Below are positions 25,364 through 59,647 of a DNA stretch of 64,000 bases, in pieces. The notes below the pieces were generated by a model. The model saw only the letters and a list, made by a program, of their open reading frames with translations. It searched no databases and was not told the DNA's origin. Position 1 is the stretch's first letter, and each line of letters starts with the position of its first letter. The DNA lies in the NCBI RefSeq assembly GCF_021044625.1, contig NZ_CP087999.1, positions 3,369,001-3,433,000 of the forward strand. Reading direction: 5' to 3'. Origin of the DNA: Geomonas sp. RF6. Lineage in GTDB: Bacteria > Desulfobacterota > Desulfuromonadia > Geobacterales > Geobacteraceae. The position numbers and the translations under genes were made by a program.

Positions 25364-25367
25364 GACC

Positions 25368-33214: not shown

Positions 33215-33229
33215 ACGATGGAGGAAGAT

Positions 33230-35301: not shown

Positions 35302-35310
35302 GGAGGCGTG

Positions 35311-36552
35311 ATGTTGCGACCGAAGAAAGATGCTTACAATCCGAGTCAACCTCTCTCCGAAGGTGGATACCACGGGCACACCAGCGACTCCGGGACGGAG
35401 CCGCTTCCCCTGTCGCCTATGCAGCTCTGCGTAATGCACGTACTCTACTCTCTCGGGGTTGGGGGGGCCGAAAAATTGGCCTACGACATGGTTGCCAGCC
35501 TTCCCGCGCACCGGTACCGGCCCATAATGGTTTGTGTCGGTCAAAGCGGCCCCCTCGCCGAAAGGGTCCGCGCGAGGGGAATCACCCTCTACCTCCGTCC
35601 TGACAGTATAAAGGATCGGTGGGGCACGGTGTCCTGGCTGAAAGCGATCATCGAGAAAGAGCGGGTGGCGGTGGTCCACGCCCATCAGTACAACCCGTTG
35701 CACTACTCGGTTCTGGCCACCCTCGGCAGACCAGAGGTCAATCTCGTGTACACCGAGCACGGGCGGATGTACCCGGAGCGCTTGAATTGGAAGCGCTACC
35801 TGACGAACCGCCTCTTTGCCACGAGGGTCAATCACCTCGTCTCCATCTCCAGCAGCACACGGCTCGCGATGGTGCGATACGACAACCTTCCTGGACCCCG
35901 CATCTCCGTCATTCACAATGGAGTGGAGATCGACGAGGTGGGCCCGCAGTTTGATCTCAAGGAAAAGCGCCGTGCACTTGGTATCGGGGAGGGGGCTCGC
36001 GTGATCGGGACGGCCAGCCGCCTAGAGGAGATCAAGAACATCCCGACGATGCTGAGAGCTTTCAGGAGGGTGCTTCAGGCATTCCCCGACTGTGTCCTGC
36101 TCGTTGCCGGCCACGGTACGCAGCTTGAGCGTCTCACCGCCCTTGCCACCGAACTGGGGATCTCCGAGCGGGTGCACTTCCTGGGCCTGCGATCTGATCT
36201 ACGGGAGATCTTCAAGGTCATTGAGGTCTTCCTCCTTGTCTCTTTCACGGAGGGAATATCAATTACCCTCCTGGAGGCTATGGGGAGTGGCGTGCCGACC
36301 GTGGTTTCCAGGGCGGGAGGTAACCCTGAGGTCGTTCTCGACGGGGTGACGGGATACCTTGTGGAGGTGGAAGACGATGAAGCGCTGGCGCGGCGCGTGG
36401 TCGAGCTTCTGAACGATCGGGAAAAGGCCGCCCGGCTGGGAGCCCGGGGGCGTGAGCGGGTTATCGCGGATTTCAGCTTCAGCACGATGATGGAAGCATA
36501 TCTGAAGCTTTATCAACACAGGATCGAAGGAAGCCATGAGATTCGCGGATAA
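35311..36552 (+). CDS. Family 4 glycosyltransferase
   Basis: About 413 residues. HVLYSLGVGGAEKLAYDMV, VHAHQYNPLHYSVL, GTASRLEEIKNIPTML and SFTEGISITLLEAMGSG mark the GT-B fold and donor site. The first 35 residues are low in structure. ATG at 35311 is four bases after GGGAGG; a GTG three bases earlier is too close to it. It overlaps the flippase gene. Confidence 0.85.
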   Translation: MLRPKKDAYNPSQPLSEGGYHGHTSDSGTEPLPLSPMQLCVMHVLYSLGVGGAEKLAYDMVASLPAHRYRPIMVCVGQSGPLAERVRARGITLYLRPDSIKDRWGTVSWLKAIIEKERVAVVHAHQYNPLHYSVLATLGRPEVNLVYTEHGRMYPERLNWKRYLTNRLFATRVNHLVSISSSTRLAMVRYDNLPGPRISVIHNGVEIDEVGPQFDLKEKRRALGIGEGARVIGTASRLEEIKNIPTMLRAFRRVLQAFPDCVLLVAGHGTQLERLTALATELGISERVHFLGLRSDLREIFKVIEVFLLVSFTEGISITLLEAMGSGVPTVVSRAGGNPEVVLDGVTGYLVEVEDDEALARRVVELLNDREKAARLGARGRERVIADFSFSTMMEAYLKLYQHRIEGSHEIRG

Positions 36553-38065
36553 GGCAACGCTCAATATTCTTGCAAAGACGGCCGGGTCGGTGCTCTTGAT
36601 GGTCTCGAGCGTTATCATGACCCGCTACCTCACGAAGGCCGCCTATGGCACGTACCTGCAGGCGATGCTCATAGTCAACACCGTTATCCTCCTCGCTTTC
36701 GTAGGGATACCGCAAAGCATCTACTACTACTTCCACGTCACTGCCGACAGGAAGAGGTTCATCTACAGGAACCTCCTCCTGAGCATCGCCATTGGAGGAG
36801 TGGTGGCCCTCGTCATGATCCTCTGTGCGGGGGGCATCAGCGCCCTCATGGGGAACGCCGAACTGGCAGGCTACGTCCCCTACATGGCGCTGATAATACT
36901 GCTGCAGGCTCCTCTCGGCTTCCGGGACTCGATCTTTTTCTCCTCCGGGGCGTTTGTAGCCAATTCCGGGAGCGTCCTCTGCTGCGCCCTTCTGGACTAC
37001 CTGCCCCTTTTCTGGGCAGTCGCCTGCGGGTTCGGCCTCAGAGAGATCTTCCTGCTGATGATAGTCTCCAAGGCGTTGGGGCTTTTCCTCTTCTTCATCC
37101 TCCTGAGGCGGTGCTGCCTGAGCCGGTGCGGGGGCTCTCCTGCGGATACCGGGGAGCATGTGACGCTGCTGGACCAGATTCGATACGCGGTTCCGATCAG
37201 CGCAGCGGGATATCTCGGAGTGGTCGGCAGCCAGCTGGACAAGTACGTCATATCGAACGGCTTCTCCCCCGCCCAGTTTGCCGTCTACTCCCGTGGCGCG
37301 ATGGAAGTCCCTTTCATTTCCACCATCACCTACCTCCTGAACGACATCACCCTCCCGCAGTACATCGCCGCCTACAAGGAAAGGAACGTTAAACTCCTTC
37401 TCGACCTGATGCACGCGAACATGGACAAGGTGGCAAAGATAAACCTCGCGGTTTTCGCCTTCCTCATGGTCGAGGCTCCACTGCTCATCGAGACTCTGTA
37501 CACGAAACAGTACGCGGAGGCGATTCCCGTTTTCAGGGTATACCTGCTGTCGCTTCTCTTCGGTGTAACGGTGTACAACATGATCCCCACTGTCAGCGGC
37601 AACACCAGGATGCTCCTGCATGCCACCGTCATCAGTATCGTGACGAAGATCTCCTGTTGCCTGCTCTTTCTCAAGATCATGGGCACAGTCGGCGTGGCTG
37701 CCGGCGTCTTTGCCGGTTCTTTCCTGTACGTCGTGTACCTCCTCGGGTGCTCCGTGCGGATACTGGGGGTGAAGTGGTCTGAGATCATGCCGTGGCGCCA
37801 TGTCGCGAAGATCTCAGCTGTCGCGGGTGCCGCCGGGGGCGCAACCTTCATCTTTCACCTCCTGTGGACGGGATGTGGTTTGCCTGAACGGTTGCCGGCC
37901 CTTGCTACCTTCTTTGTGATCTTTTGCTACGTCTACCTCTTCGCCCTCAACCTTGCCGGGCTCGTCAGCAGCGAAGACCATGGGTTCCTGAGAAGGTGGC
38001 TGCGGATCGATCCGTTTCTTTTCATCCCGGGGCGCAGGCGGCTCCCTGAAGCCTCGAGGGGGTAG
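36536..38065 (+). CDS. Wzx-type oligosaccharide flippase
   Basis: 509 residues with about twelve to fourteen hydrophobic segments spaced through the whole length. The N-terminus, LAKTAGSVLLMVSSVIMTRYLTKAAYGTYLQ, has the R-x-L-x-x-x-x-Y-G pattern of MOP/Wzx exporters. It moves lipid-linked repeat units across the inner membrane (family knowledge). It ends the main operon that starts at 17712. Confidence 0.87.
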   Translation: MRFADKATLNILAKTAGSVLLMVSSVIMTRYLTKAAYGTYLQAMLIVNTVILLAFVGIPQSIYYYFHVTADRKRFIYRNLLLSIAIGGVVALVMILCAGGISALMGNAELAGYVPYMALIILLQAPLGFRDSIFFSSGAFVANSGSVLCCALLDYLPLFWAVACGFGLREIFLLMIVSKALGLFLFFILLRRCCLSRCGGSPADTGEHVTLLDQIRYAVPISAAGYLGVVGSQLDKYVISNGFSPAQFAVYSRGAMEVPFISTITYLLNDITLPQYIAAYKERNVKLLLDLMHANMDKVAKINLAVFAFLMVEAPLLIETLYTKQYAEAIPVFRVYLLSLLFGVTVYNMIPTVSGNTRMLLHATVISIVTKISCCLLFLKIMGTVGVAAGVFAGSFLYVVYLLGCSVRILGVKWSEIMPWRHVAKISAVAGAAGGATFIFHLLWTGCGLPERLPALATFFVIFCYVYLFALNLAGLVSSEDHGFLRRWLRIDPFLFIPGRRRLPEASRG

Positions 38066-38267: not shown

Positions 38268-39581
38268 ATGTCCATATCCTCCATTCTGTATCTTGCCTTC
38301 TTCCTCGCCGGAGCCGTGGCTACCATGTGGTACTCGCCCTTTTACGGCATCCTCCTGTATATGATGGAATACCTTGTCAATCCCCCTCAACGGTGGTGGT
38401 ATTCGGAGCTACCGCATCTCCGCTACTCTTTTCTGGTAATGTGCCTCGTGGTGATCAGCTACCTTGGAAACATGAAGAAGTTCACTCACAATCGAGTCCT
38501 TTCGCTGCCACAGGTGAAGTGGCTGGCGGGGCTCGTGGTACTGGTGGTGATCAGTTATCTCTGGGCCGTAGATCCGGAGGTGCACCACAAGTTTGCGACA
38601 CGGTACCTGAAGGTCCTGATGTTCGTCATCCTTGCCTACAAGGTGACCGACACACCGGAGAAAATGGAGGCACTCCTGGCAACATACCTGGTAGGCACGA
38701 GCTACCTCGCCCTCCTGATCTGGCAGACCGGACGGACCGGAGGGGGGAGGCTGGAAGGGATAGGGTGCGCCGACGGGAGCGATGCTAACGGCACCGCCGC
38801 GCTCCTTGCCACAGCGGTCCCCCTTTTCGTCTTCTATCTGCTGTTTATAAAAAGCAGGCCGCTGCAATTCGTATGTCTGGTGGGCCTTGCCTTCAACCTC
38901 AACGCTCTGATCCTTCTCAACAGCCGCGGGTCCTTTCTCGCCGTTACCTTTACCATCGCTTTCTTCTCCTGGAGGGTTCTGCGCGAGAAGGGGCTGATAG
39001 GGCAGAAGGCGAAAATCGTCGTGGGGGTCGTAGGCGTTGCGGCACTCTTTCTCTATCTCGCCGACGACGTCTTCTGGACCAGGATGTCTACCCTGAAGGA
39101 GGTGCAGGGCGCATCCGAGAAGGAGACCCACAGCAGGGTGGACTTCTGGCTCATGACGCCGAAGATGCTGGGTGATCACCCCCTCGGTGGCGGAGCCAGA
39201 ACCTACCACACGCTGAGCCCTTACTACCTCCCGAAGGAGTGGCTGACTAACGGGAAGAGGGCCGTTCACTCAACATGGTTCGAGGTGCTCTCCGACTATG
39301 GCTACCAAGGCTTGTGCTGCTTCATCGGCTACGTCGCTTCCGTCTTCGTGCTGGCGCGAAAGACACGACAGCGGCTCTCGGCTGCTGGAGCCACCTACCA
39401 TACCTTCCAGGCAACGGCACTGGAATCCTCGTGGCTTTCGCTGTTGATTGCCCTCTCCTTTATCAACGGGTTCTACGGTGAGCTTATGTACTGGCTTCCT
39501 TTCTTCATTGCAGCATTCGCCAACATCCATCTGTCCAGACCGGCGACTGTCGCGTTGGCCCCGCAGTCCTCCCTCGGATAA
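38268..39581 (+). CDS. Exosortase A-associated O-glycosylation ligase / Wzy-like polymerase
   Basis: 437 residues with many membrane segments. The N-terminus (LYLAFFLAGAVATMWYSPFYG, NPPQRWWY) is distinctive for the XrtA-associated O-antigen ligase family. The large loop has LNSRGSFLAV and HPLGGGARTYH, followed by HSTWFEVLSDYGY, the Wzy_C signature. Starts at ATG 38268; another ATG five bases upstream is in the wrong frame. A truncated second copy of its N-terminus occurs at 46768. Confidence 0.88.
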   Translation: MSISSILYLAFFLAGAVATMWYSPFYGILLYMMEYLVNPPQRWWYSELPHLRYSFLVMCLVVISYLGNMKKFTHNRVLSLPQVKWLAGLVVLVVISYLWAVDPEVHHKFATRYLKVLMFVILAYKVTDTPEKMEALLATYLVGTSYLALLIWQTGRTGGGRLEGIGCADGSDANGTAALLATAVPLFVFYLLFIKSRPLQFVCLVGLAFNLNALILLNSRGSFLAVTFTIAFFSWRVLREKGLIGQKAKIVVGVVGVAALFLYLADDVFWTRMSTLKEVQGASEKETHSRVDFWLMTPKMLGDHPLGGGARTYHTLSPYYLPKEWLTNGKRAVHSTWFEVLSDYGYQGLCCFIGYVASVFVLARKTRQRLSAAGATYHTFQATALESSWLSLLIALSFINGFYGELMYWLPFFIAAFANIHLSRPATVALAPQSSLG

Positions 39582-39618
39582 GCGAGCCACGACTGCAGGC
39601 AGAAGACCTCCTCACACC

Positions 39619-39869
39619 GCGCACCTTCGCCTCCCTCAAGAGGAGGCCTGCGGCCTGTCGATCTGCTCTCTCTCTACCGTTATGTTTGTGCAAATCGACA
39701 TGAGAAACGACTGGTACAGCAGGCGGCTGCGCCCCGGGAGTCCCACCGGGGAAGACCTCGCTACCTCGTGGACTGCACGTCCCGGTGTGGGGCCCCTCTG
39801 ATTGCAAAGGTCCGGGTGGACAGGGAGGCTTTCTTTGACTCGGCTGTGAACCATTTTACTGTTCCTTGA
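39619..39869 (+). pseudogene. Frameshifted C-terminal remnant of a transglutaminase-like gene
   Basis: The DNA aligns with 47720-47940 of the intact transglutaminase-like gene: CGCACCTTCGC, TACCGTTATG, ACATGAGAAACGACTGGT and CCCGGGAGTCCC are shared. Translated pieces in different frames match it in order: VDLLSLYRYV, then DMRNDWYSRRL and GSPTGEDLAT, then VRVDREAFFDSAVNHF. At least two frameshifts break it and the first two thirds are missing. It ends at TGA 39867-39869. Confidence 0.85.
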
Positions 39870-40190
39870 CGCGTCACATCTTACCTCGAACGGGGCGCTC
39901 CTCTTTTCGAGAAGCTGGCTGCGATCGTCGGCACCTCTCTGTGAAAGGGGTGACAATTGCGGGCTGCCGACAGCGAGGACCCCTCGTCAGTGGCCCTTTC
40001 CCCCTGTTGCGGCCCCTCCTGCGCAGGAAGAGGGGGCGCGTTCTCTGGCTTTAATGTGATATAATTAATTCTTCGGTGGCTGTACTGAAAACTGGGGTTG
40101 CGCTTTCCGTTCGTCCATCTGGAGGGAAGCCAGGAGGCCGCTCCGGACTCAGAGAACGTCCGGGGGACCTTGTCACAGGGAGGGCAGACA
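39870..40190. other. Intergenic region with promoter for the CapK-like gene
   Basis: No gene recognised. It contains the extended -10 promoter listed next and a GC-rich imperfect hairpin near 40010-40040 without a T-tract. Confidence 0.4.
40057..40065 (+). promoter_or_regulatory. Extended -10 sigma-70 promoter
   Basis: TGATATAAT is a perfect -10 with the extended TG element; no convincing -35. The start would be near 40072, leaving a leader of about 120 bases before the GTG at 40191. Confidence 0.55.
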
Positions 40191-41468
40191 GTGAAGATCC
40201 ACAAGTACCTTTACCTCGCGGGGGTCTGGCTGCGCAACAGGAAGATCTTCGACTGCTACAGGTCTTTGAAGGAGAGTGAGAAGTACGACCTGAAGACACT
40301 CCAGGAAATGCAGCTTGCCAGACTGCAGGATCTTCTTGTCCACGCGTATGGGAGGTCTCGCTTCTACAAAAATAAGTTTGATAGTTGCGGCTTCCATCCC
40401 TCCCACATCAGGAGCCTCCAGGACGTGGAAAAGATCCCGTGCAGCACGAAAGAGGAGGTGCTGGCAAATTGCGCGGCGATTCAAATAATGGACTGCGGCG
40501 AGAGGCTCTTTTACTCGGAAACGTCCGGAAGCACCGGAAGACCTCTGGTATTCTACCGCAACCAGGAATGGGATGCGTGGCACAACGCCTCGGTGTTCAG
40601 GGGATACTCCTGGCATCAGGTTGAGCCGTGGGAGCGGAGTGGTTACCTGTGGGGCTACAATATCGCACCCGCGAAGCGTCTGAAGATGAGGCTGCTGGAT
40701 TCCCTGCAGAACCGGTTCCGGCTCTTTTCCTACAAGGATGAAGATGTGGAAGAGTTTTCCAGGAAATTGCGCCATGCCCGTTTTCTGGAGGGCTACTCCT
40801 CGATGGTCTATGAAGTGGCGAAAAAGGTCAATGCGAATGCCCGTCACGGCTATAACCTGCAGATGGTAAAGGGCACCTCGGAGAAGATACTGGAGGTATA
40901 CCAGCGCGAGGCGCAGAGAGCGTTCGGTAGGAGGCTCGTCAGCGAGTACGGTTCTGCAGAAGGCGGGATCATCGCCTTTGAGTGTCCCGGTCGCAACATG
41001 CATATAAATATGGAGACATCGCTCGTAGAGGTCATAGAGGAGGAGATAGTGGTGACAAACCTCGTCTCCAGATCCTTTCCCATCATCCGCTACAAGCTGG
41101 GAGACTATGTGAGGGTAGACAGGGAGACGAAATGCTCATGTGGAATGGCGCATCAAATCATTACCGAAGTAACCGGAAGGGTAGGTGCCCTGATACACGG
41201 GAAGAAGCACACATATCCCAGTTTGACGCTTTACTATGTTTTCAAGAATCTGGCAGGAAGGAATCTGGTCTACAACTATCAGGTGGTGCAGGACACGAAA
41301 GGAAAGGTTGTTGCTTATCTGGAAAAGAAGCTTGAACCGGCCGAGACCTCCCTGATCCAGGGGGAGTTCCGCAAGTACTTCTCCGACGACCTGGAGGTGG
41401 TGATACAGGATGACTGTCAGCGAAGCGATTTCAGCGGCAAGAGAAAAGATTTCATATCGACCGTCTAG
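40191..41468 (+). CDS. CapK-like adenylate-forming enzyme (phenylacetate-CoA ligase family)
   Basis: 425 residues. The ATP-binding loop is SETSGSTGRPLVFYRN, and SEYGSAEGGIIAFECP and YKLGDYVRVD are later adenylation motifs. Paralogues in capsule and exosortase loci are annotated CapK; they are thought to activate a carboxylic acid for transfer onto the polymer, but this is unproven. GTG at 40191 is six bases after AGGGAGGG. An upstream in-frame ATG at 40098 lacks a ribosome-binding site. Confidence 0.83.
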   Translation: MKIHKYLYLAGVWLRNRKIFDCYRSLKESEKYDLKTLQEMQLARLQDLLVHAYGRSRFYKNKFDSCGFHPSHIRSLQDVEKIPCSTKEEVLANCAAIQIMDCGERLFYSETSGSTGRPLVFYRNQEWDAWHNASVFRGYSWHQVEPWERSGYLWGYNIAPAKRLKMRLLDSLQNRFRLFSYKDEDVEEFSRKLRHARFLEGYSSMVYEVAKKVNANARHGYNLQMVKGTSEKILEVYQREAQRAFGRRLVSEYGSAEGGIIAFECPGRNMHINMETSLVEVIEEEIVVTNLVSRSFPIIRYKLGDYVRVDRETKCSCGMAHQIITEVTGRVGALIHGKKHTYPSLTLYYVFKNLAGRNLVYNYQVVQDTKGKVVAYLEKKLEPAETSLIQGEFRKYFSDDLEVVIQDDCQRSDFSGKRKDFISTV

Positions 41469-41615
41469 CTTTGCCCCAGCATCGCAAACGCCGGCTCAAT
41501 GGCGAGTAGCCATGACACCGGGGGTCGCAAGTCCGGGGAAGTGCCTTCCTCCGCCGGGACGGGGCGGATAGAGATAGCAGGCAAGGAGTAGGGCCAACAG
41601 GATGCCAGAGAACCT

Positions 41616-42572
41616 ATGGATATCGCGTTTATAATACCAGCTAAGAACGAGGAAAAGAGGATCTCCGTTTGCCTTGCCGCCATCGAAGGCCTGAACAGGG
41701 ATGGCCATAACATAACTGTTGTGGTGGTTGACAACGGCTCGTCAGACAACACGGTGGAAATAGCGCAGAGATTCCATGCTCAGGTCTTCGTGCAGGTGGG
41801 CTCCACCATCGCACAGATGAGGAATCACGGAGCCGGCCGGGTCGCGGGAGATGTCGTAGTCTTTGTTGACGCAGATGTCGTCGTTGCGAAAGACTTTCTG
41901 GTCCGGGCCCTGCCGCATCTCGAAAGGGAGGAAATCGGTATCGTCACGGGGCGCATCGACATCCCCGGTGACAGTACGTGGGTGCAGAAGGCCTGGGAAC
42001 AGACCAGGAGAAAGAACAGGACGGTTGGCTACGTACAGTGGGCCTCGTCGATGAACATGGTAATGAAGAAGGAGCTTTTCCATGAGATAGGGGGGTTCTC
42101 CGAATCCCTGGTGACCTGCGAGGACGTGGATCTTTGCAGGAAGGTGACGTTGCATGGCAAGAAGATCCTTTATGATGACGAACTCGTAGTAACTCATCTG
42201 GGTGAAGCCAGGGATCTCTATGCACTGTACCTGAAGGAGAAGTGGAGGGGCAGAAGCCTCGCAAGCATCACGGTCTCGAGGACGTCGTTGCGCCAGTTTT
42301 TCAGTGTCGTTCAGTTCTATCTCTTTTCTTTTGCACTGGCTTTGAACCTTTACATTGCGGTATCTGCCGGACCTGTCCCCCTATCAGTGACACTTCCCGT
42401 GGTTCTCATGCTTCCTCTCTACAGAAGTGCACGAGCCGTGTGCCGCGGGGCAGAAGTCAGATTCTTCGGCCCCCTTATCATCGTCTGGATGGTTTATTAC
42501 GTGGCCAGAAGTGCATCTCTGTGGCACGGGCATTTCCAGAAAATGTTCACTCCCCGGGGAGGGACATCATGA
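41616..42572 (+). CDS. Family 2 glycosyltransferase, paralogue of the one at 19608
   Basis: 318 residues: FIIPAKNEEKRISVCL, VVVDNGSSDNT, VFVDADVVV, TWVQKAWEQTRRKN, SSMNMVMKKELF and VTCEDVDLCRKV. The C-terminal half is hydrophobic with two to three membrane segments. Motif order and spacing match the protein at 19608, so it arose by duplication within the locus. Its stop overlaps the ATG of the next gene. Confidence 0.85.
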   Translation: MDIAFIIPAKNEEKRISVCLAAIEGLNRDGHNITVVVVDNGSSDNTVEIAQRFHAQVFVQVGSTIAQMRNHGAGRVAGDVVVFVDADVVVAKDFLVRALPHLEREEIGIVTGRIDIPGDSTWVQKAWEQTRRKNRTVGYVQWASSMNMVMKKELFHEIGGFSESLVTCEDVDLCRKVTLHGKKILYDDELVVTHLGEARDLYALYLKEKWRGRSLASITVSRTSLRQFFSVVQFYLFSFALALNLYIAVSAGPVPLSVTLPVVLMLPLYRSARAVCRGAEVRFFGPLIIVWMVYYVARSASLWHGHFQKMFTPRGGTS

Positions 42573-43981
42573 AGAAGTCCTTTAAAACGGCCTTTTCCCT
42601 GGCAGCTACTCTGGCGGTCTTCCTTTATGGCGGCGATAGCAAAGGAGCAAGCTGGCAGGAGGTCCTGCAAAGCCGGTACGACATCGTCGAGACCTTCGAT
42701 GAGCTACGAGACTGGACCCCTGGTGGCCAATGGTACTCCGCCGCCGGTTGCCCGACCTGTCCCTCTGACACAACACTTCCCCGGAGGCTCGACGGGACGA
42801 AGTCGATCTGGGGGCTTTGGAACAACAAGGGGTTGGCCTTCCAGTACGATCCAGGGCGCGGGACCTTCGCCCCTGGTGACCTCATTACCGGTGGGACGTC
42901 CGGTGCCCGAGCTACGGTGCGGCAGGTATGGAACCTGGAGGGGAAGTGGTACATCCAGCTGACCGACGGCAACGGCGTTCGTGGAACCACGAACTTTGTG
43001 GCCGGCGAGCGCATCAGTTGCGGGTCAAAGACAGGGTCGAACCTGCAGTGGCCGCTTTTCATCGCCGACCACGGCCCAGGCAAAACCTGGCGGGGAAACG
43101 GAAAATCGCTGGTTATGGATATAGGCGACAACGACAATACCGACCCCCGGAACCCGACAATGGCGGGTTTGGGAGCGCAACGGATGGCCGCATTCCTTGG
43201 TGACGGAAGAAGTGGGAAAAGCGGCTACAAGAAGATACATGTTTTTTTCATGATGAAGGTCAGTCGCACCTTCTTCAATAAATCCCAAATGTCCGGGGCG
43301 ACCTCCGTTGCCGATGGGTACGATCCGGTATCGGTAGTAAAGGTCTTTGAACTGGACTCCGGCTTCACGGGGGTAAGCCAGTGGGGAATCCCGTCAGAGG
43401 CGGCTCAGGTTTCCGGACCTGATTCCCACCGTCTCAACGAGTACGGGCTGAACTACAGCATCTTCTACTTTATGGGGGGGGGGAAGTCATTCCCTCGGAG
43501 CATATTCTTCGGGGAAGGTACCCGTGTTGCTGGCGGCGCCTCGCGCAATTACCTAGTCAGCAGAAAGGGCGGCATCAGGCCGCTACGCAGGGGTACAAGC
43601 CTGGACATCGAGTCGTATATCGCGTCCGGCGACTGGTTCGGGGTCGAGGTGGCCTCCGACATTGGCACTCCTGGCAACAACGATGGAAGCTTGGACTTCT
43701 GGATTTACGACAAAAACGGTTCCGAGAAGGGGCACTACTCGGTACGCCGCGAAAACAGGGTGATGCATTTCGACCACTTCTACAACAAGTTCGTGCTGGG
43801 GGGGAACCGGCTGAGCCGCAGCGGCAAAACCGGTGGAAACGACAGCCGGTGGTGGATTGACGATGTAATCATCAATGGCTCCCGCATCGGGCCGAGCTAC
43901 TTCCTGCTGCTTAAGGGAACGACTTTGTCCACCGTCCCCTCATCCACTCCGACTAAAGGGACAATCCCCAGCGGCCAGTGA
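42569..43981 (+). CDS. Secreted protein of unknown function, short paralogue
   Basis: 470 residues. A signal peptide (MKKSFKTAFSLAATLAVFL) is followed by a single beta-rich domain: FDELRDWTPGGQWYS, SIWGLWNNKGLAF, GDLITGGTSGARATV, DIGDNDN, VFFMMKVS, FWIYDKNG and RWWIDDVIINGSRIG. The alternating aromatic and glycine pattern and absence of membrane helices suggest a carbohydrate-binding or lectin-like fold, but no family can be named. The N-terminal 440 residues of the protein at 48978 are a clear paralogue. The ATG overlaps the previous stop; GGGGAGGG precedes it. Confidence 0.75.
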   Translation: MKKSFKTAFSLAATLAVFLYGGDSKGASWQEVLQSRYDIVETFDELRDWTPGGQWYSAAGCPTCPSDTTLPRRLDGTKSIWGLWNNKGLAFQYDPGRGTFAPGDLITGGTSGARATVRQVWNLEGKWYIQLTDGNGVRGTTNFVAGERISCGSKTGSNLQWPLFIADHGPGKTWRGNGKSLVMDIGDNDNTDPRNPTMAGLGAQRMAAFLGDGRSGKSGYKKIHVFFMMKVSRTFFNKSQMSGATSVADGYDPVSVVKVFELDSGFTGVSQWGIPSEAAQVSGPDSHRLNEYGLNYSIFYFMGGGKSFPRSIFFGEGTRVAGGASRNYLVSRKGGIRPLRRGTSLDIESYIASGDWFGVEVASDIGTPGNNDGSLDFWIYDKNGSEKGHYSVRRENRVMHFDHFYNKFVLGGNRLSRSGKTGGNDSRWWIDDVIINGSRIGPSYFLLLKGTTLSTVPSSTPTKGTIPSGQ

Positions 43982-44023
43982 GCAGGACTCGGCCAAACAG
44001 GAGCACGTTCACAAGGAGGGTAC

Positions 44024-45133
44024 ATGCCCGGTGACGATCGCGATCTATCTTTTACCGCTGTAGGGGACCTCATGCTCGGGGACTCCGCGAAGTGCGTAGG
44101 GTTCGGCGTCAGGTCAGCCACCTCGAGATCCGGTTTTGGCTACCTGTTCCAGAAGATCTGCAACTTTCTCGAGGGTGACATAGTCTTTGCCAACCTGGAA
44201 TGTGTGGTCGGCGACCACGACTTCTGTCGCTGGAGTTTCAGGAAAGCGCAGATGAGGGGAGCTCCGGGAGCAGTAACAGCACTCCGCGAAGCAGGAATCA
44301 CCGTGCTCAATGTCGCCAACAATCACGCAATGCAGCACGGGGAGGTCGGCTTCAGGGCTACCTGTCGGGCCATAGAAGAGGCAGGGCTCCATGTCGTGGG
44401 ACTGCGCGGCACAGGAAGGTACCTGTGCCACCCCCTGGTCCTTGATCTACGCGGGAAAAAAGTCGGCATCCTGGGGTATGGATGTACCACGGAGAACTAC
44501 TGCAGAAACACCCCTCTGTACGCCCAGGGACACCCCCCCCAGATCATCGCTGACACCGCAATGTTGAGCGAGGAGTGCGACAAGGTCGTGGTCAGCCTCC
44601 ACTGGGGGGACGAGTTTGTTTCGGGGCCTTCCGCGGAGATTGTCGACCTCGGGAGAAAGGTGATAGATGCCGGCGCTTGCCTTGTAGTAGGACATCACCC
44701 GCACGTACTGCAAGAAGCGGAGGCTTACCGCGACGGGATAATCCTCTACAGCCTGGGAAACTTTGTATCGGACATGCTGTGGGATGATCCGTTGCGGAAG
44801 GGGATAATTGTCACCTGCGATGTAGGTGCCACGACGCAAATCCGCAAAACCGTGCTTGTGGAGACCTGCGACGACTACAGCGTCGCCCCGCTGGCAGTTG
44901 CGGAGCACTACCCGGTTTCCCACTGCTCACGCGTTCCGGCAGAGTATGAGTCATATGTGGAGAGACTGCGCCTGCGGAACAGAAACCTTTCCCACCTCCA
45001 TGTGGCGAAGAACTTCCACCGGTACAACCCCGCAATCCTGGCGCAGATAGCCTTTCAATCCCTGCGGAGCGCGCTGCATCTCCAGGACGCCAGTCCCGGG
45101 CGTCGATCCGTGCGCCACTATCCTCATCCCTGA
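44024..45133 (+). CDS. CapA family protein (PgsA-like metallophosphatase fold)
   Basis: 369 residues. FTAVGDLMLGD, FANLECVVG, VLNVANNHAMQHG, VVSLHWGDEF, VVGHHPHVLQ and ILYSLGNFVSD are the ordered metal-site motifs of the CapA family. Members help make or release poly-gamma-glutamate and other capsules; here the role is open. No signal peptide. ATG follows AGGAGGG. Confidence 0.85.
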   Translation: MPGDDRDLSFTAVGDLMLGDSAKCVGFGVRSATSRSGFGYLFQKICNFLEGDIVFANLECVVGDHDFCRWSFRKAQMRGAPGAVTALREAGITVLNVANNHAMQHGEVGFRATCRAIEEAGLHVVGLRGTGRYLCHPLVLDLRGKKVGILGYGCTTENYCRNTPLYAQGHPPQIIADTAMLSEECDKVVVSLHWGDEFVSGPSAEIVDLGRKVIDAGACLVVGHHPHVLQEAEAYRDGIILYSLGNFVSDMLWDDPLRKGIIVTCDVGATTQIRKTVLVETCDDYSVAPLAVAEHYPVSHCSRVPAEYESYVERLRLRNRNLSHLHVAKNFHRYNPAILAQIAFQSLRSALHLQDASPGRRSVRHYPHP

Positions 45134-45257
45134 ATCTGCCAGCGGCATGGCCTCCTTTCCACCAGTGCCGCGAACCGTTGTGAAGAGACGTTTCGGTCCG
45201 AGGCCCCCTCTGCCCCGTCTCGCCCGGTAAGGAAGAGTCTTCGATTACATCCTTGCA

Positions 45258-45285
45258 TTGAAAAGAATTTATCTTGTACTAGACT
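45258..45285 (+). promoter_or_regulatory. Candidate sigma-70 promoter
   Basis: TTGAAA, 16 bases, TAGACT. Both halves are partial matches. It lies in the 235-base gap before the next glycosyltransferase. Confidence 0.3.
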
Positions 45286-45368
45286 GGTCGAGATACCTGA
45301 CTCATCCGGATCTACCCCACCGCAACTGCCTTCCGCTGCCTTCATACGATCATTTGAAAGGGAAAGAA

Positions 45369-46754
45369 ATGCAGAAAAACAAGCTGCTGTTCGTCACCTT
45401 TTACTATCCGCCGGCAGGAGGCGTGGCTCTGCCAGGCTCGCAGCGGGCGGTCAAGTTCGTGCGGTACCTTGAGAAGCAGTCGGTATGGGTGCTGACAGTG
45501 GAAACCTCCTGCTATCCCCCCTTCGTCTCCCGCGACTTCGACCGCGAGGTGCCGGTCAAGGGTGAGAAGATCGCATTCGCGCGCTCCTACGACCTGTTCC
45601 AGGTGCTTCTCGCCCTGAGGCGTGCGCTCCGACGCGCTCTCGGAAGAGGGAGAGGAAAGGTGGAGGCGCAGGGGATGGCCGCGGCGGGGGGATCTGAGGC
45701 CCTTCCGCGGCACCCCCGCTCCCTGGCGCAAAAGGTCAAGGACTTCGTCTACGACCTTTGTCACTATCCTGACGGAGCGAGCGGCTGGATCCTGCCTGCG
45801 CTGCGAGCCGGCCGCAGCATTGTCAGAAAAGAGAAGATCGACCTCGTGTTAGCCAGCGGAATGCCATGGTCAGCGCTGGTGGTGGCCTGGCTTCTGCACA
45901 AGGTGACCGGCGTCAGCTTCGCCGTGGATTTTCGGGACCCCTGGATCGGCAACCCCTTCCACGAAAGCAAGGGGGTCCTCCTGGATGCTCTCGGAAGGTA
46001 TCTGGAGAGGCGCATCGTGCACGATGCGGCGCTTGTCTCGGCGAATACGGAGCCTCTGCGGGACGAATTTCTGGCCCGGTATCCGGAGCAGCCCCGTTCC
46101 AAGTTCGTGGTGCTCAGCAACGGCTACGACCCGGAAGACTTCCGGACTTTGCAGCCGGATGCCGAAACGGCAGCTGAATCGGGTCCAGACCGCCTGGTCC
46201 TGGCGCACGCCGGTTTCTTGTATGGCAGGCGGGATCCCTCCCCCCTTCTCGAGGCGCTGGAGCGACTGATTGCTTCTGACAGGTGCCAGCCGGGGGAGTT
46301 CCTCTTTCTGCAGATCGGGACCGTGCAGCTGGATTACGATTTTCACGAGCGCTACCGCAGTCTGATGGAGCGGGGCGTGATGAGGGATCTCGGCCCCTTC
46401 CCCTTCGCCGAATGCCTGAGGGAACTGCAGCGCTCGGATGTCCTGGTGCTGATTCAGCCAAACACCAGGACGCAGGTACCGTCCAAGCTCTACGACTACC
46501 TGTGCCTGAACAGGCCTATCCTCACCATTACCCCTCACGACGGCGCGCTGGGAAGAATGGTCACTCAGCACCGGTTCGGGGACCTCTTCGACCAGACGGA
46601 CGTGGCGGGGATCGCAGACCGGCTGCTGGAGTTGCTGGAGCAAAAGAAGATCGCCGGCACACTGCGCGCTGACTACCATGAGCGTGACTTCTACAACGTC
46701 CAGCGCATTGCAGCCGTCCTCGACGACCACCTGATCGAGGCAGCACGATCATAG
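45369..46754 (+). CDS. Glycosyltransferase, GT4-like
   Basis: 461 residues. LLFVTFYYPPAGGVALPGSQR is the N-terminal loop; DLVLASGMPWSALVVAWLL and VDFRDPWIGNP follow, then VLSNGYDPEDF and VPSKLYDYLCLNRPIL in the donor domain. This pattern is common in GT-B enzymes of exopolysaccharide loci. An insert of about 30 low-complexity residues sits near 95-125. The start at 45369 has a GAAAGGGA site; an upstream ATG-less extension is unlikely. Confidence 0.8.
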   Translation: MQKNKLLFVTFYYPPAGGVALPGSQRAVKFVRYLEKQSVWVLTVETSCYPPFVSRDFDREVPVKGEKIAFARSYDLFQVLLALRRALRRALGRGRGKVEAQGMAAAGGSEALPRHPRSLAQKVKDFVYDLCHYPDGASGWILPALRAGRSIVRKEKIDLVLASGMPWSALVVAWLLHKVTGVSFAVDFRDPWIGNPFHESKGVLLDALGRYLERRIVHDAALVSANTEPLRDEFLARYPEQPRSKFVVLSNGYDPEDFRTLQPDAETAAESGPDRLVLAHAGFLYGRRDPSPLLEALERLIASDRCQPGEFLFLQIGTVQLDYDFHERYRSLMERGVMRDLGPFPFAECLRELQRSDVLVLIQPNTRTQVPSKLYDYLCLNRPILTITPHDGALGRMVTQHRFGDLFDQTDVAGIADRLLELLEQKKIAGTLRADYHERDFYNVQRIAAVLDDHLIEAARS

Positions 46755-46767
46755 AGAGCGAGGGAAG

Positions 46768-46953
46768 ATGTCCGCTACAGCACTCTTCTTCGTCGCAGTC
46801 TTTTTCAGCGGATGCATCGCCACCGTAAGTCTGTCATCCATCTGCGCGCTTTTCTTGTGCGTGTTCAACCATCTGGTCAACCGGAGTGGGCGCTGGTGGT
46901 ATGCTGGCCTCCGCGATGGTGCAGCGCCAGAAGCTCAGGAAAGTCTTCCGTGA
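46768..46953 (+). pseudogene. N-terminal remnant of a second O-glycosylation ligase gene
   Basis: 61 codons. The first 46 residues align with the N-terminus of the intact ligase at 38268: MSATALFFVAVFFSGCIAT against MSISSILYLAFFLAGAVAT, then FNHLVN-R-GRWWY against MEYLVN-P-QRWWY. After that the frame runs into unrelated sequence and a TGA that overlaps the next gene's ATG. The remaining 390 residues are gone. A start codon and GAGGGAAG site survive, so a short membrane peptide could still be made and might couple translation to the next gene. Confidence 0.8.
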
Positions 46954-48194
46954 TGAGTCCGAAGCGATCAAGCCGGCGATTGGCGGCGGCAACGGTGGCA
47001 ATCCTCTTGTGCTGCACGCTCCTCCTCTCCCGCCACTACCACGCCACGCCATTTACTCTCGTGCATCTGGCGGCCAAAAGAGTCTGCACGCCGATCCTTG
47101 CCCGCCACTATTCCAGCCATCTGGATCGGGTGGAGGCGATCTGCGGCTCCTACTTCCACGGCGAAAATGAGCAGCAGCCGCAGGAGAGGGGGGCACTGGC
47201 GCAAGGCGGCACCCTGCCCGCACCTGGTGCAATTCCCTTCGTCTATGAGTCCTCCCGCGCCGAGTACCTGCTGGAACTTTTGCAGCGGTTTCGCCTGAGA
47301 CATCTGGTCTCAAGCGGCGCCACGGAATATGACCGGATGCTGATCCTGTTCCGCTGGATTGGCACACGGTGGGACCATGGGACGGATCCAGTGCCAGGTG
47401 GCGTTGCGACCGGGTCTCCCGCCGACATCATTGTCTCCGGTGAAAGGGGCAGGAGATTCTGGTGCGAAGTATGCGCCAGGGTGACGGTGCAGACGGCTAC
47501 GGCCCTTGGCTGGCCGGCCCGCCTCGTTACCGCCTCCAGTGACGGGTATGTTTGGGAGCACGCGCTGGCGGAGGTGTGGTCCAACCAGTTCAACAAATGG
47601 TTCCTGGTGGATACCGACTACAACCTCGTGTACGAAGCCGGCGGCATCCCCCTTTCGGCTTACGAGCTGTGCCACCGCGGGGTGCAACTCAAGAAAGAGG
47701 GGTTGCTGAAGGTTCGCACCTTCGCTCCTCTGAAGCCCAGCCTGCGGGAGGTGGATCTCTTGCATCTTTACCGGTATGTTCATCTCGACATGAGAAACGA
47801 CTGGTTGAGCAGGCGCTTGCCCCCCGGAAGTCCCGCCGGTGGCGATCTCGCCACCTGGTGGACTGCTCGCAGTGACCTTGGTCCTATCCTGACAGAAAAA
47901 AAACGTGTCGACTCCCAGGCCCTCTTCGACTGGCCCGTAAACGTCGTTCAGGTGCGGGCCAGGGAGGTGCGGGAGGTGGGGGGGGGCAGATATCTGCTGA
48001 AGCTGGGATTGCGCTGCTACAGTCCGTACTTCAGCCACTTCGAGGTAAAAGCCGACGGCGGAGGATGGCGGGATTGCAAGGGGAGCGGGCGTTACTTGCT
48101 GCTGGCACCGGGCAGGCATGCCGCAGAAGCCCGGGTGGTCACCGAAAACGGCGATCCCGGGCCCCCGTCGCGGATCGAGTTCACACTTCCTTGA
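46953..48194 (+). CDS. Transglutaminase-like protein
   Basis: 413 residues. A membrane anchor or signal lies at 10-28 (AAATVAILLCCTLLL). The core reads FWCEVCARVTVQTATALGWPARLV (Cys), YVWEHALAEVW (His) and WFLVDTDYN (Asp), the ordered triad region of the transglutaminase-like fold. The C-terminal 120 residues are beta-rich. Such proteins in bacteria are mostly peptidases or amidases rather than cross-linkers, so the reaction is open. ATG at 46953 overlaps the upstream stop. A decayed C-terminal copy lies at 39619. Confidence 0.8.
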   Translation: MSPKRSSRRLAAATVAILLCCTLLLSRHYHATPFTLVHLAAKRVCTPILARHYSSHLDRVEAICGSYFHGENEQQPQERGALAQGGTLPAPGAIPFVYESSRAEYLLELLQRFRLRHLVSSGATEYDRMLILFRWIGTRWDHGTDPVPGGVATGSPADIIVSGERGRRFWCEVCARVTVQTATALGWPARLVTASSDGYVWEHALAEVWSNQFNKWFLVDTDYNLVYEAGGIPLSAYELCHRGVQLKKEGLLKVRTFAPLKPSLREVDLLHLYRYVHLDMRNDWLSRRLPPGSPAGGDLATWWTARSDLGPILTEKKRVDSQALFDWPVNVVQVRAREVREVGGGRYLLKLGLRCYSPYFSHFEVKADGGGWRDCKGSGRYLLLAPGRHAAEARVVTENGDPGPPSRIEFTLP

Positions 48195-48977: not shown

Positions 48978-51590
48978 ATGACGAAGTTTCTGAGATCGAC
49001 GTTTACTGTTGTAGCAGGGCTGGCCTTGCTCTTTGCCAGCACGGAGGGGAAGGCGGCCACATGGCAAGAGACCCTGGACTCCAAGTTCGACATCGTTGAC
49101 ACATTCGACGAACTGCAGGATTGGACACCTGGTGGTCAGTGGTATTCCGGTGCCGGTTGCGCCACCTGTCCCTCCAACTCTTCCCTTCCGAAGAAAATCG
49201 ATGGCAGCAAGTCCATCTGGCAGCTCTGGAACACCAAAGGGTTGTCCTTCCAGTTCACTCCTGGCAGCGGAACCTTCGCCATAGGTGACGTAGTCACGGG
49301 TGGGACTTCCGGTGCCACGGCGACGGTGCGCCGGGTCTGGAACCTCGACGGCAAGTCTTACATTCAAATCACTTACGACAACACCGCCAGGGGCACCTCC
49401 AAATTTGTGGCGGGGGAGCGCATCAGCAGCGGGTCTAAGACGGGGACGAACCTGCAGTGGCCGCTCATGATCGGGAACCACGGCGCCGCCTACACCTGGA
49501 GGGGTACCGGAAAATCCCTTGTTCTGGACATAGGGGACAACGACAACCTCAAAGCCACCGACCCGACCATGGCGGGTCTGGGGGTGCAGCGGCTGGGGAC
49601 CTACTTCGGTGATGGTACTAACGGGAAAAGCGGCTACAAGAAGGTCTATGTCTTTTTCATGATGAAGGTGAGCCCGACCTTCTTCAACAAGTGCCTCGAT
49701 CCCGGGACCACCTGTGTCGCTGGCGGCTATGATGCGACCAAGGTAATAAAGGCTTTTGACCTCTGCTCCGGCTTCACCGGCGTGAGCGAGTGGGGAACCG
49801 CTGCAGACAGGGCTTTGGTTGACGCCAGCTGGGCCTACCGTGTCCCCGAGTACGGAATGAACTACAGCCTCTTCAACTTCATAGGCGGAGGGCTCTCTAA
49901 CCCTCAGAACCTCTTTTACGGGGAGCATAATCGTGTAGCTACCGGCACCGCCCCCAACTACACAGTTGCCAACATCGTCAACAACCGGCCGCTGCGTAGC
50001 GGCACCACCCTGGACATCAACTCCTATATCAGCACCGGCGACTGGTACGGCGTCGAGCTTGCCGCGGACATAGGGACGAAGGGGAACAACGACGGCAGCA
50101 CGGACTTCTGGATTTACGACAAAAATGGTGTAGAGAAGGGTCACTTTTCCGTTACGGGCCAGAACCATCTGATGTACTTCGATCATTTCTACAACAAGAT
50201 CACGCTCGGTGGTAATCGCCTGAGCGGCCACGGCCTCACCGGCGGGCTGGACAGCCGCTGGTGGATAGATGACTTCATCATCAACGGATCCCGTATCGGT
50301 ACCACTTATTTTCAGCTGCTTTCGGCCCAGGGGAACGCTGACGGCACCGCTCCGACTGCGAGCATCTCGGCTCCTGCCGGCGGGAGTACCGTGACCGGCA
50401 CCACCACCGTCTCCATAGGTGCTTCCGACAACGTCGGAGTGAGCAAGGTGGAACTGTACGTTAACGGCGTGCTCCAGGGGAGCGACACTGCTGCTCCATA
50501 CGCGGTGAGCTGGAACACAGCGAACGTGGCGAACAGTACCTACACCTTGACGGCGAAGGCATATGACGCCGCCGGTAACATCGGCCAGTCGGCTCCTGTC
50601 AGCGTCACTGTGAAGAACGTGGTGGGGGATACCACTGCCCCGACGGCTTCCATCAGCGCCCCGACCGCCAATGCGACCGTTTCCGGCACCACGCCGGTCT
50701 CGATGACTGCCAGCGATAACGTGGCGGTAAGCAAGGTAGAGCTGTACGTCAACGGAGCGTTGTATGGGATGGACGGAACGGCTCCCTACAGCATGTCATG
50801 GAACAGCGCTTCCTATCCCGACGGCGCGTACACCCTGACCGCGAAGGCGTACGATGCCGCCGGAAACGTGGGTACCTCCTCCGCAGTGAGCGTCAACGTC
50901 AAAAACACCGTGACCGCGACCAAGTACTCCCTCACCGCAAGCGCCGGCACGGGGGGGACTATCACCCCTGCGGGTACCACAAGCGTGACTTCCGGGGCCA
51001 GCCAGACCTATACCATCACCCCGGCGACCGGCTACAAGATCTCTGCGGTGAAAGTCGACGGCGCCTTGGTGGGGACGGCATCCAGCTACACCTTCTCCAA
51101 CGTCACCGCGAATCATACAATCGCGGCGAGCTTTACCTCTACCACGGCGACTACCGTATTTGCGGTAAACTGCGGCGGCTCCCAGTACACGAGCACCGGC
51201 TCTGTCTCCTACTCGACTGACACCAGGTACACCGGTGGTGCAGCCTCCACCACGACCTCCACCATCACCGGTACTACCGACCAGACGCTGTACAAGAGCG
51301 AGCGCTGGGGGACGAGCTTCGGCTACAACATCCCGCTGCCGAACGGGACATACTCCGTGACCCTCAGGTTTGCCGAGTTTGCGTACAGCACAGTCGGTTC
51401 GCGCGTCTTCAATGTGGCGATTGGCGGCTCCACCGTTATCAGCAATCTCGACATCTACTCCAAGGTAGGGAAAAATGCTGCCTACGACGTGACCCTGCCG
51501 GTGACGGTGACCAACGGCACGATGAATATCCAGTTGAGCGGAAAGGTCGGGAATGCGAAGATCAACGCCATCCAGGTCAGACGCGTATAA
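48978..51590 (+). CDS. Large secreted protein: unknown domain, two Ig repeats, InlB-type repeat and malectin domain
   Basis: 870 residues. Signal peptide (FTVVAGLALLFASTEGKAA), then a 420-residue domain clearly paralogous to the protein at 42569 (FDELQDWTPGGQWYS, GDVVTGGTSGATATV, DIGDNDN, VFFMMKVSPTFFNK, RWWIDDFIINGSRIG). Next come two Big_7-type Ig repeats (TAPTASISAP, ASDNVGVSKVELYVNG), a divergent InlB B-repeat-like part (GTGGTITPAGTTSVTSGAS) and a C-terminal malectin-like domain (VFAVNCGGSQYTSTG to INAIQVRRV). Malectin domains bind carbohydrate, so this looks like a glycan-binding matrix protein. ATG follows GAGGTG. Terminator at 51637. Confidence 0.85.
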   Translation: MTKFLRSTFTVVAGLALLFASTEGKAATWQETLDSKFDIVDTFDELQDWTPGGQWYSGAGCATCPSNSSLPKKIDGSKSIWQLWNTKGLSFQFTPGSGTFAIGDVVTGGTSGATATVRRVWNLDGKSYIQITYDNTARGTSKFVAGERISSGSKTGTNLQWPLMIGNHGAAYTWRGTGKSLVLDIGDNDNLKATDPTMAGLGVQRLGTYFGDGTNGKSGYKKVYVFFMMKVSPTFFNKCLDPGTTCVAGGYDATKVIKAFDLCSGFTGVSEWGTAADRALVDASWAYRVPEYGMNYSLFNFIGGGLSNPQNLFYGEHNRVATGTAPNYTVANIVNNRPLRSGTTLDINSYISTGDWYGVELAADIGTKGNNDGSTDFWIYDKNGVEKGHFSVTGQNHLMYFDHFYNKITLGGNRLSGHGLTGGLDSRWWIDDFIINGSRIGTTYFQLLSAQGNADGTAPTASISAPAGGSTVTGTTTVSIGASDNVGVSKVELYVNGVLQGSDTAAPYAVSWNTANVANSTYTLTAKAYDAAGNIGQSAPVSVTVKNVVGDTTAPTASISAPTANATVSGTTPVSMTASDNVAVSKVELYVNGALYGMDGTAPYSMSWNSASYPDGAYTLTAKAYDAAGNVGTSSAVSVNVKNTVTATKYSLTASAGTGGTITPAGTTSVTSGASQTYTITPATGYKISAVKVDGALVGTASSYTFSNVTANHTIAASFTSTTATTVFAVNCGGSQYTSTGSVSYSTDTRYTGGAASTTTSTITGTTDQTLYKSERWGTSFGYNIPLPNGTYSVTLRFAEFAYSTVGSRVFNVAIGGSTVISNLDIYSKVGKNAAYDVTLPVTVTNGTMNIQLSGKVGNAKINAIQVRRV

Positions 51591-51636
51591 CCGGGGGCAA
51601 TGTACACTCCGGCTGATGCCGGTAATTGTGAGATCG

Positions 51637-51669
51637 AAAAAGGCACAGGAACTTTCCTGTGCCTTTTTT
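51637..51669. terminator. Bidirectional intrinsic terminator
   Basis: AAAAAGGCACAGGA and TCCTGTGCCTTTTTT form a strong hairpin between convergent genes. Confidence 0.9.
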
Positions 51670-51857
51670 GTGGGGGCGCAAGGCAGCGTGCACGCGATAC
51701 CTCAGCTGTTGTGGCTGATCCTCATGGTGTGACCGATGTCCCCGGGGCCCGCACTGTGTGGGAAACGGCAGCAAGCTGGAACAGAAACGCGTGCAAGGCA
51801 GGCGGGCAATATGGCCATATCTTCAAGGTCCAATAGCTGTCCATCAGGGCGTTTCTG

Positions 51858-52103: not shown

Positions 52104-52133
52104 GGCATTTCCTTCCTTTTGGTTGAACCCGGT

Positions 52134-53126: not shown

Positions 53127-53144
53127 GTACCCTCCTGCGGCCGG

Positions 53145-55115: not shown

Positions 55116-55167
55116 GGGTGTGATTTCCTGTCTGAGGTGGGTTAAAAAAGTGGAACCATGTTAAGAA

Positions 55168-55196: not shown

Positions 55197-55329
55197 TCGG
55201 AGCGCCGTTCACCGGACCGCTGAAGGAATCGCCTGTTATCCTGGCTTCTCTGCAGCAGCAAAGCCGCACCCCCTCCGGGCGGAGACCGTGCTCCCCTGTC
55301 ATCCTGCGGCGCAACCGGCACTGTTATCG

Positions 55330-58348: not shown

Positions 58349-58699
58349 AAAGCTCCTCCAGTACCCCCGCCAGGCCGTTGCGTCCCGGGGAGGAAAGACG
58401 CGGGTGAGGTAGCAAAAAAAGTGCCCTGGCCGCAGTCGAGGCTAACCCTCTGTGATTACAGGTGATCGAGCCGCCTCATGCGGACGCGGCGTTCGCACTG
58501 TCGGAATTCTTTACAGCGTACGGCGGGCGTCCCTCCGGAAGTACGGTGAAAGCAGAAAAAAATTTCCCACCTGCAGCGCCTTCTCATTCTGCTGCTACTT
58601 TTAATAAAAAGTGTCTATTGGTTCGGCGTCAGTTACTCCTTGATCAGGAGCGCGTTTTCGGCCTAATTCCCGAATTTTCACTCATTCATGCAGCTGTTG
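58349..58699. other. Divergent intergenic region between crp-like gene and xrtA
   Basis: About 350 bases of divergent regulatory space. A frame across it is not supported by any domain. The clear promoter is the one at 58700. Confidence 0.45.
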
Positions 58700-58728
58700 T
58701 TGCAAAAGAAGAATTGGTTGTGTATCAT
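58700..58728 (+). promoter_or_regulatory. Sigma-70 promoter of the xrtA operon
   Basis: TTGCAA (four of six), 17 bases, TATCAT (five of six). The start near 58735 gives a leader of about 65 bases to the xrtA ATG. Confidence 0.55.
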
Positions 58729-58801
58729 AATCCGCCTGCAATCTTCGGTCTCACTCAAGCAACTTCGATGCTCTTGCAAAGCGACAAAGCGGTGGCGAGC
58801 T

Positions 58802-59647
58802 ATGACTTTGGTTGAATCTCTGAAGGCCGACAAGTGGCCGTATCTGATACTGCTGCTCCTTGTGGCTGTGCTGTACCATACAGTGGTGCCGCAAATGGCG
58901 CTCGACTGGTACCACGACGCGAACTATTCGCATGGATTCGTAGTCCCTCTCATTGCCGGATACTTCCTCTATGAGATGAGAGAGGAACTGCAGGGCGTGG
59001 CGGTGGAGCCGTGGTGGCCGGGGCTCGCCCTCGTCGGGTGCGGGGTCGTGCAACTGGTGCTGGGATGGCTTGCAACCGAGCTCTTCACCATGAGGTCCTC
59101 CATCGTCGTCCTCCTTGGCGGGCTCACTCTCTTTTTCTTCGGGAAGGGGGCTTTCCGGCTCATGCTCTTCCCTATCTGCTACCTCTTTTTCATGGTCCCC
59201 CTGCCGTACATCGTGTACGACGCGGTCGCTTTCCCCCTGAAGCTCTTCGTGACGAAGGCCTCCATCGCGTTCCTGAAGCTCATGGGGGTGGTGGTCCTGT
59301 CGGAAGGGAACATCATCATCCTGCCGGAGACGACACTGGAGGTGGCGGACGCCTGCAGCGGGATCAGGTCGCTCATCTCGCTCCTGGCACTGACCGTGGC
59401 CTACGCCTTTTTCCTGCGCATCCCCCCGCTCAAGAGGGTGCTTCTGATCGGTGCGGCAGTCCCGGTGGCGGTCTTCACCAACGCCCTCCGGGTGATCGTC
59501 ACCGGCTTTCTGGCGCAGTACTGGGGAGCCCGGGCGGCGGAGGGGTTCTTCCATGAATTCGCAGGGCTCGCGGTTTTCGGCGTGGCGATTGCCATGGTGG
59601 TCTCCTTCGGCGGCCTCCTCGCCCGCTCGGGGAAGGGGGGCTCATGA
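58802..59647 (+). CDS. xrtA: Exosortase A
   Basis: 281 residues with about eight membrane helices. The catalytic triad of the exosortase/archaeosortase family is intact: Cys185 in VADACSGIRSL, Arg230 in TNALRVIVTGF and His251 in GFFHEFAG. It cuts proteins at the PEP-CTERM signal and passes them to an unknown acceptor at the membrane. ATG at 58802 is chosen because upstream in-frame codons add a charged non-membrane stretch. Overlaps EpsI by four bases. Confidence 0.93.
   Translation: MTLVESLKADKWPYLILLLLVAVLYHTVVPQMALDWYHDANYSHGFVVPLIAGYFLYEMREELQGVAVEPWWPGLALVGCGVVQLVLGWLATELFTMRSSIVVLLGGLTLFFFGKGAFRLMLFPICYLFFMVPLPYIVYDAVAFPLKLFVTKASIAFLKLMGVVVLSEGNIIILPETTLEVADACSGIRSLISLLALTVAYAFFLRIPPLKRVLLIGAAVPVAVFTNALRVIVTGFLAQYWGARAAEGFFHEFAGLAVFGVAIAMVVSFGGLLARSGKGGS

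Follow-up and report, generated by a model that had tools for sequence, protein, structure and literature searches.

Two half-decayed blocks of Wzy_C and transglutaminase-like genes suggest reciprocal loss in an exosortase-type exopolysaccharide locus of Geomonas sp. RF6

HvyA, an exported transglutaminase homologue of Caulobacter encoded in a Wzy-type capsule locus, carries a signal sequence as well as a BTLCP domain, is released along with periplasmic proteins and requires its catalytic residues to hold back the capsule, according to the excerpts of the paper on which we draw (PMC4241560). Here we describe a locus in which a gene for a transglutaminase-like (TG) protein and a gene of the Wzy_C family each occur twice, side by side, with a different member of the pair broken in each copy. 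The locus lies in a 64,000-nucleotide stretch of the Geomonas sp. RF6 genome, a single contig of 5,258,610 bases (NZ_CP087999.1, positions 3,369,001 to 3,433,000; hereafter the window, in whose coordinates all positions are given). As the gene for exosortase A (XrtA) sits in it, we take the region as an exopolysaccharide (EPS) cluster of the XrtA/PEP-CTERM type.

Amidotransferase, deacetylase and glycosyltransferase genes are among the usual parts of XrtA/PEP-CTERM EPS loci. An exosortase A gene is what the window's locus shares with the loci set out in the main text of Haft 2006 (PMC1569441), and a word search of that main text gave neither 'transglutaminase' nor 'ligase'. Among the open-licence papers of PubMed Central, none joins 'transglutaminase', 'exosortase' and 'polysaccharide', and nothing was found there on reciprocal gene loss together with a polysaccharide gene cluster. 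TIGR03097 (PEP_O_lig_1), a putative O-glycosylation ligase family associated with exosortase A, is matched nearly end to end by the intact Wzy_C protein of the window (ligase A) and by those of two relatives, G117 and G603, at scores (107.7, 139.5 and 113 bits) that all lie under the membership cut-off of 188.1.

Judged by analogy, HvyA is the nearest working counterpart that we found for the TG protein. Like HvyA as described in those excerpts (PMC4241560), the intact copy (TG B) is a transglutaminase-like Cys-His-Asp protein, predicted to be exported, whose gene stands within a Wzy-type polysaccharide locus. It differs in that its N-terminus appears to hold a membrane segment and no obvious cleaved signal, and in its MRNDW motif, FN3-like domain, weak match to PF01841 and lack of a BTLCP match. 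As it matched no BTLCP model, we do not count TG as a BTLCP member; it may nonetheless work as HvyA does. The novelty is this unnamed family in such EPS loci, rather than the decay itself.

Two blocks with opposite members broken

Copy A retains its Wzy_C gene. Ligase A scores 60.5 bits against PF04932, above the gathering cut-off of 31.7 and thus within the Wzy_C family, and agrees with an alignment of 11 relatives (ligase A counted) at every one of the 13 positions where 10 or more of them have the same residue. We use 'ligase' as a family label; a single such gene near wzx would equally suit a Wzy polymerase. A second, distant Wzy_C gene is found elsewhere in the window (2048-3313).

The TG gene of copy A is a remnant that begins 8 bases past the ligase A stop. 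By blastn, positions 39620-39779 match 47715-47869 within TG B (76% over 160 columns, E 6e-26), and at the protein level the remnant covers parts of TG B in three frames: residues 245-261 in +1, 259-330 in +2 (aligned poorly in the middle) and 275-312 in +3. We read the path as starting in +1, passing through +2 and +3 and returning to +2. The front has lost about 244 residues and the back about 83. A sequencing error is an unlikely origin for the remnant, because both ends are missing and the frame changes are several.

Copy B shows the converse arrangement. Residues 1-48 of its ligase stub align without gaps to residues 1-48 of ligase A (17/48 identical, score 95), and none of 2000 shuffles reached this score (mean 29.6, standard deviation 4.65). 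The similarity is specific: with 200 shuffles per protein, z was 14.7 for ligase A, whereas none of 20 further Wzy_C proteins, drawn from this genome and others, exceeded 2.1, and chance similarity was therefore rejected. DNA-level comparison of the stub with ligase A gave no significant match, so that a plain DNA alignment would overlook it. The last 13 stub residues may be the old ligase C-terminus. At 46953 the stub runs with its stop codon into the TG start, which has an AGGAAAG site just ahead of it. TG B is the sole intact TG copy in the genome (protein search, E<=1e-10), and the only TG copies found genome-wide are it and the remnant.

These alignments bear out the preliminary description, in which two homologous ligase-TG pairs of the same order had lost opposite members: a frameshifted TG remnant after an intact ligase (its 39619 falls inside 39590-39851), and an N-terminal ligase stub (46768) before an intact TG gene (46953). 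Homology between the copies exceeds chance, by DNA and protein for TG and by protein only for the ligase, and one working set, an intact ligase and an intact TG on the same strand, is indeed split across 8 kb.

The same blocks contain a third doubled gene, for a secreted protein, of which both copies (secA and secB) are intact, with 72% DNA identity over 1264 columns and 63-66% amino acid identity. The part shared by secA and secB matched no Pfam or NCBIfam model, and a PDB sequence search gave a best E of 0.49, which we take as chance. Searches for homologues hit 1 of 141 genomes in the order and 1 of 395 in a phylum sample, in each case the window's own genome. A fold model of the secreted protein (mean predicted local distance difference test score, pLDDT, 32.0) was not usable.

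Table 1. Features of the two blocks and of their neighbourhood (window coordinates)
Feature	Position	Strand	Basis or remark
Wzx-type flippase (Polysacc_synt_3), upstream neighbour of copy A	36536..38065	+	Pfam
Copy A Wzy_C gene (ligase A; O-antigen ligase/polymerase family), intact, 437 amino acids	38268..39581	+	PF04932
Copy A decayed TG gene, about residues 245-330 in shifted frames, both ends lost	39590..39851	+	DNA and protein alignment to TG B
PaaK/CapK-like adenylate-forming enzyme	40098..41468	+	NCBIfam matches, all below cut-offs
Family 2 glycosyltransferase (GT2)	41616..42572	+	domain match
secA, secreted protein of no named family, copy A	42569..43981	+	export signal read from sequence; similarity to secB
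PGA_cap (CapA-like) protein	44024..45133	+	domain match
GT4-type glycosyltransferase, upstream of copy B	45258..46754	+	domain match
Copy B ligase stub, 61 codons, residues 1-48 matching ligase A, remaining gene lost	46768..46953	+	protein alignment
Copy B TG-like gene (TG B), intact, 413 amino acids	46953..48194	+	hydrophobic N-terminal segment, TG core, MRNDW motif, FN3-like C-terminal domain
secB, secreted protein, copy B, with extra Big_7 repeats and malectin domain	48978..51590	+	DNA/protein similarity to secA; domain matches
Exosortase A (XrtA)	58688..59647	+	TIGR03109, 212.1 bits (cut-off 208)

The TG family and its Wzy_C neighbours

TG B has a single hydrophobic segment, at residues 10-28, and scores 22.0 bits against PF01841, just under the gathering cut-off of 23. 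The PF01841 match falls on the core of all six aligned family members (E<=0.01, best 1e-7), and C171, H203 and D220 are invariant in the six; from their positions and by analogy with the transglutaminase family, we take these residues to be the Cys-His-Asp catalytic triad. WSN and MRNDW motifs also stand out in the alignment. Pfam, which presumably contains a BTLCP model, returned only PF01841 in scans of TG B (E<=0.001) and of the six members (E<=0.01). Collectively, we read TG B as a predicted cysteine enzyme of the periplasm, anchored in the inner membrane.

Structural searches mainly reached the FN3-like C-terminus. In a predicted model with a mean pLDDT of 52.6, residues 330-413 gave a best Z of 9.5 (root-mean-square deviation 2.1, 82 residues aligned), to be read against the search tool's warning that a Z of 7 to 8 is common. 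No transglutaminase appeared among the 50 top matches of each fold search with the model, which says nothing against such a fold, and a PDB sequence search with TG gave a best E of 0.7, taken as chance.

The family is rare. A profile search of the class matched 5 of 277 genomes (the window's own, G015, G117, G122 and G603), and an earlier profile matched 3 of 395 in the phylum sample (the window's own, G178 and G429), so that six other genomes bear a TG gene. Around G429 and G178, further searches found members in 1 of 39 and 1 of 8 genomes, each time the starting genome itself. A Wzy_C-family gene directly follows TG in three of the six (G117, G122 and G603), called by Pfam in the first two and, in G603, by an 11-protein Wzy_C profile together with TIGR03097 below its cut-off. 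The undivided pair that the preliminary description suggested looking for in relatives is present in these three, in reversed order, and absent from G015 and G178. In four remote TG relatives (L006-L009) no Wzy_C-like frame was seen in the stretches examined, that of L008 being just 3.4 kb. In G429 (stretches L024 and L065), the Wzy_C gene that falls in the TG-adjacent clade might be close to the TG gene across an assembly gap.

G015 offers a positional comparison. Its order TG-PaaK-GT2-PGA_cap equals the order downstream of the copy A remnant, where secA is extra; the remnant therefore sits where this relative has its TG gene. The closest PaaK found elsewhere (61%) is that of G023.

Age of the copies, their origin and the case for a pair

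The TG and sec pairs have diverged equally, with about 0.25 nonsynonymous (dN) and about 1.0-1.4 synonymous (dS) substitutions per site: NG86 gives dN 0.24 and dS 1.24 for TG and 0.26 and 1.01 for sec, and YN00 gives 0.25 and 1.31 for TG and 0.25 and 1.40 for sec. The copies are therefore old. Identity at the three codon positions is 0.78/0.80/0.51 for the TG remnant and 0.74/0.79/0.56 for the intact sec pair. As the differences pile up at third positions in both, the remnant was probably a working gene through most of its separate history and decayed late. Over 79 comparable residues the remnant shares 54 with TG B, 43 with the TG of G015 and 33 with that of G429, and TG B and G015 share 50; by this measure the two window copies are closest to each other, by a modest margin.

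Our preferred reading, to which we give a probability of about two in three, is that the window holds two old, half-decayed blocks of a Wzy_C gene, a TG gene and a secreted-protein gene, that the loss was reciprocal, and that TG and Wzy_C have a joint role in EPS production. The variable part of the exosortase-A locus would have carried two diverged blocks on the same strand, with the TG and secreted-protein copies long under coding constraint. Later, copy A would have lost its TG gene, its ends deleted and its frames shifted, and copy B its Wzy_C gene beyond residue 48, both secreted proteins being kept; the loss of one partner per copy would have been tolerated because the other copy supplied that partner. 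At the inner membrane, the Wzy_C protein would polymerise or transfer the EPS repeat. The membrane-anchored TG protein would act there through its periplasmic Cys-His-Asp domain, cutting or transamidating an envelope protein or else an amide group within that assembly line. Reciprocal loss from paired copies amounts to a complementation experiment run by nature. It suggests that a block could do without one of the two products only as long as the other block provided it, and it points to a connection of a transglutaminase-like enzyme with EPS assembly of the Wzy type. A wider proposal, that a new family of membrane-anchored periplasmic TG proteins partners Wzy_C polymerases or ligases across exosortase-type EPS loci, in chain-length control or in the amide attachment of glycan, and that two half-cassettes can supply the pair, we regard as a long shot.

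Several observations weigh against the preferred reading. The order in G117, G122 and G603 is TG then Wzy_C, the reverse of the window, which makes two orders overall, and the Wzy_C proteins of these three genomes form one clade with that of G429, so that the three are not independent cases. In a tree of 20 Wzy_C proteins, 9 of 17 inner branches were left open. In G015 the TG gene stands beside AsnB and PaaK genes, and about 5.8 kb of the same locus separate it from the Wzy_C gene; the TG and Wzy_C genes of G178 are about 41 kb apart on one contig; and in G429 the TG gene is close to the end of one contig and the best Wzy_C candidate close to the end of another, so that adjacency is not readable. 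Among the 141 genomes of the order, TG (E<=1e-10) and a ligase A homologue (E<=1e-20) each occur in four, and only the window's genome has both at these cut-offs. The G023 locus has a Wzy_C-like gene and no TG in the 34 kb read; a TG search over its stretches L066, L067 and L069 gave five weak matches, at E 0.008 or worse. As to age, the TG estimates rest on 80 codons (one residue counted twice) that were picked for in-frame alignment and so lean to conserved codons, dS of both pairs is near saturation, and the ligase pair, too short and too diverged, yielded no dS from NG86 or YN00, so that the dating covers the TG and sec pairs.

How the blocks came to lie together is a separate matter, and the preferred reading leaves it open. 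They may have diverged in different strains, been joined by recombination in the variable EPS region and only then shed redundant genes, a case of xenology compatible with that reading and to which we give somewhat less than an even chance. A dS of about 1.0-1.4 is high for redundant genes retained next to each other, TG has a patchy distribution (5 of 277 class genomes), and the scaffold common to relatives ends at a GT4 gene, after which their gene content differs. Copy B also has no PaaK or GT2 gene between TG and sec, nor were remnants found there. A scan of 34 window genes against 13 stretches, two of which (51580-53150 and 55100-58700) are not plain gaps, recovered the TG remnant and self-matches; whatever else it gave was weak (E 3e-4 to 0.03) and fell in stretches occupied by other genes. 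Such a merger sits less well with the stub, which matches ligase A alone of 21 Wzy_C proteins compared, with a remnant nearer to TG B (54/79) than to G015 (43/79), with sec genes seen in no other genome searched (1/141 and 1/395), and with GC content at third codon positions, which shows no clear difference between the copies. 'Duplicated', in the preliminary description, holds insofar as the blocks are homologous, and the dS fits a merger of diverged cassettes too. Reciprocal loss from two copies is likely in form, as far as the alignments go, and both in-place duplication and merger fit it; among the 48 genomes searched within the taxonomic family, the window's alone belongs to its genus.

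A different objection concerns function. TG and Wzy_C could be independent EPS accessories, brought together by the sheer density of polysaccharide genes; the distances in G015 and G178 speak for this, as does the failure to find TG in G029, G056 and G111, all of which have ligase A homologues. We think it unlikely, given adjacency in both window copies and in three of six other genomes, in two orders. That the products act together, as was first proposed, is plausible from gene order: adjacency in some relatives supports it, and the distances in G015 and G178 and the lack of co-occurrence of TG and ligase A elsewhere in the order do not. In an alternative view, which we hold to be improbable, the stub is no dead remnant: it still works, as a small membrane protein or as a translational leader for TG. 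Its open frame, plausible ribosome site, single hydrophobic segment and overlap with the TG start would suit such a role; set against them, it is homologous just to the N-terminal part of a far longer protein, an AGGAAAG site inside it belongs to TG itself, and no second stub was seen for comparison.

The surrounding locus

The locus also encodes Wzx, many glycosyltransferases, deacetylases and an XrtA-type amidotransferase, the last at 647 bits against TIGR03108, under that model's cut-off of 816.9. The PaaK/CapK-like gene probably starts at about 40191. By gene content, the locus is laid out in a constant and a variable part, with the paired copies in the latter. Positions 22600-36552 hold the scaffold AsnB-GT4-RGLX-like-deacetylase-FemAB-like-(GNAT)-DUF362-(methyltransferase)-rSAM-GT4, which is found again in G023, where the bracketed GNAT and methyltransferase are not in the match list. 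G015, G117 and G603 carry parts of it, and the genes beyond the scaffold differ.

Promoter-like sites numbered 4 (4.3 expected) and terminator-like sites 17 (13.6 expected, standard deviation 3.6). A minus-strand island at 52134-56409, within the plus-strand locus, encodes NAD synthase-like, second asparagine synthase-like and Antibiotic_NAT (AAC(3)-like) proteins, the last scoring far under the NCBIfam resistance cut-offs. At 9335-17026, three paralogue-like open reading frames carry tandem Big_7 Ig-like repeats, in 5, 7 and 3 stretches.

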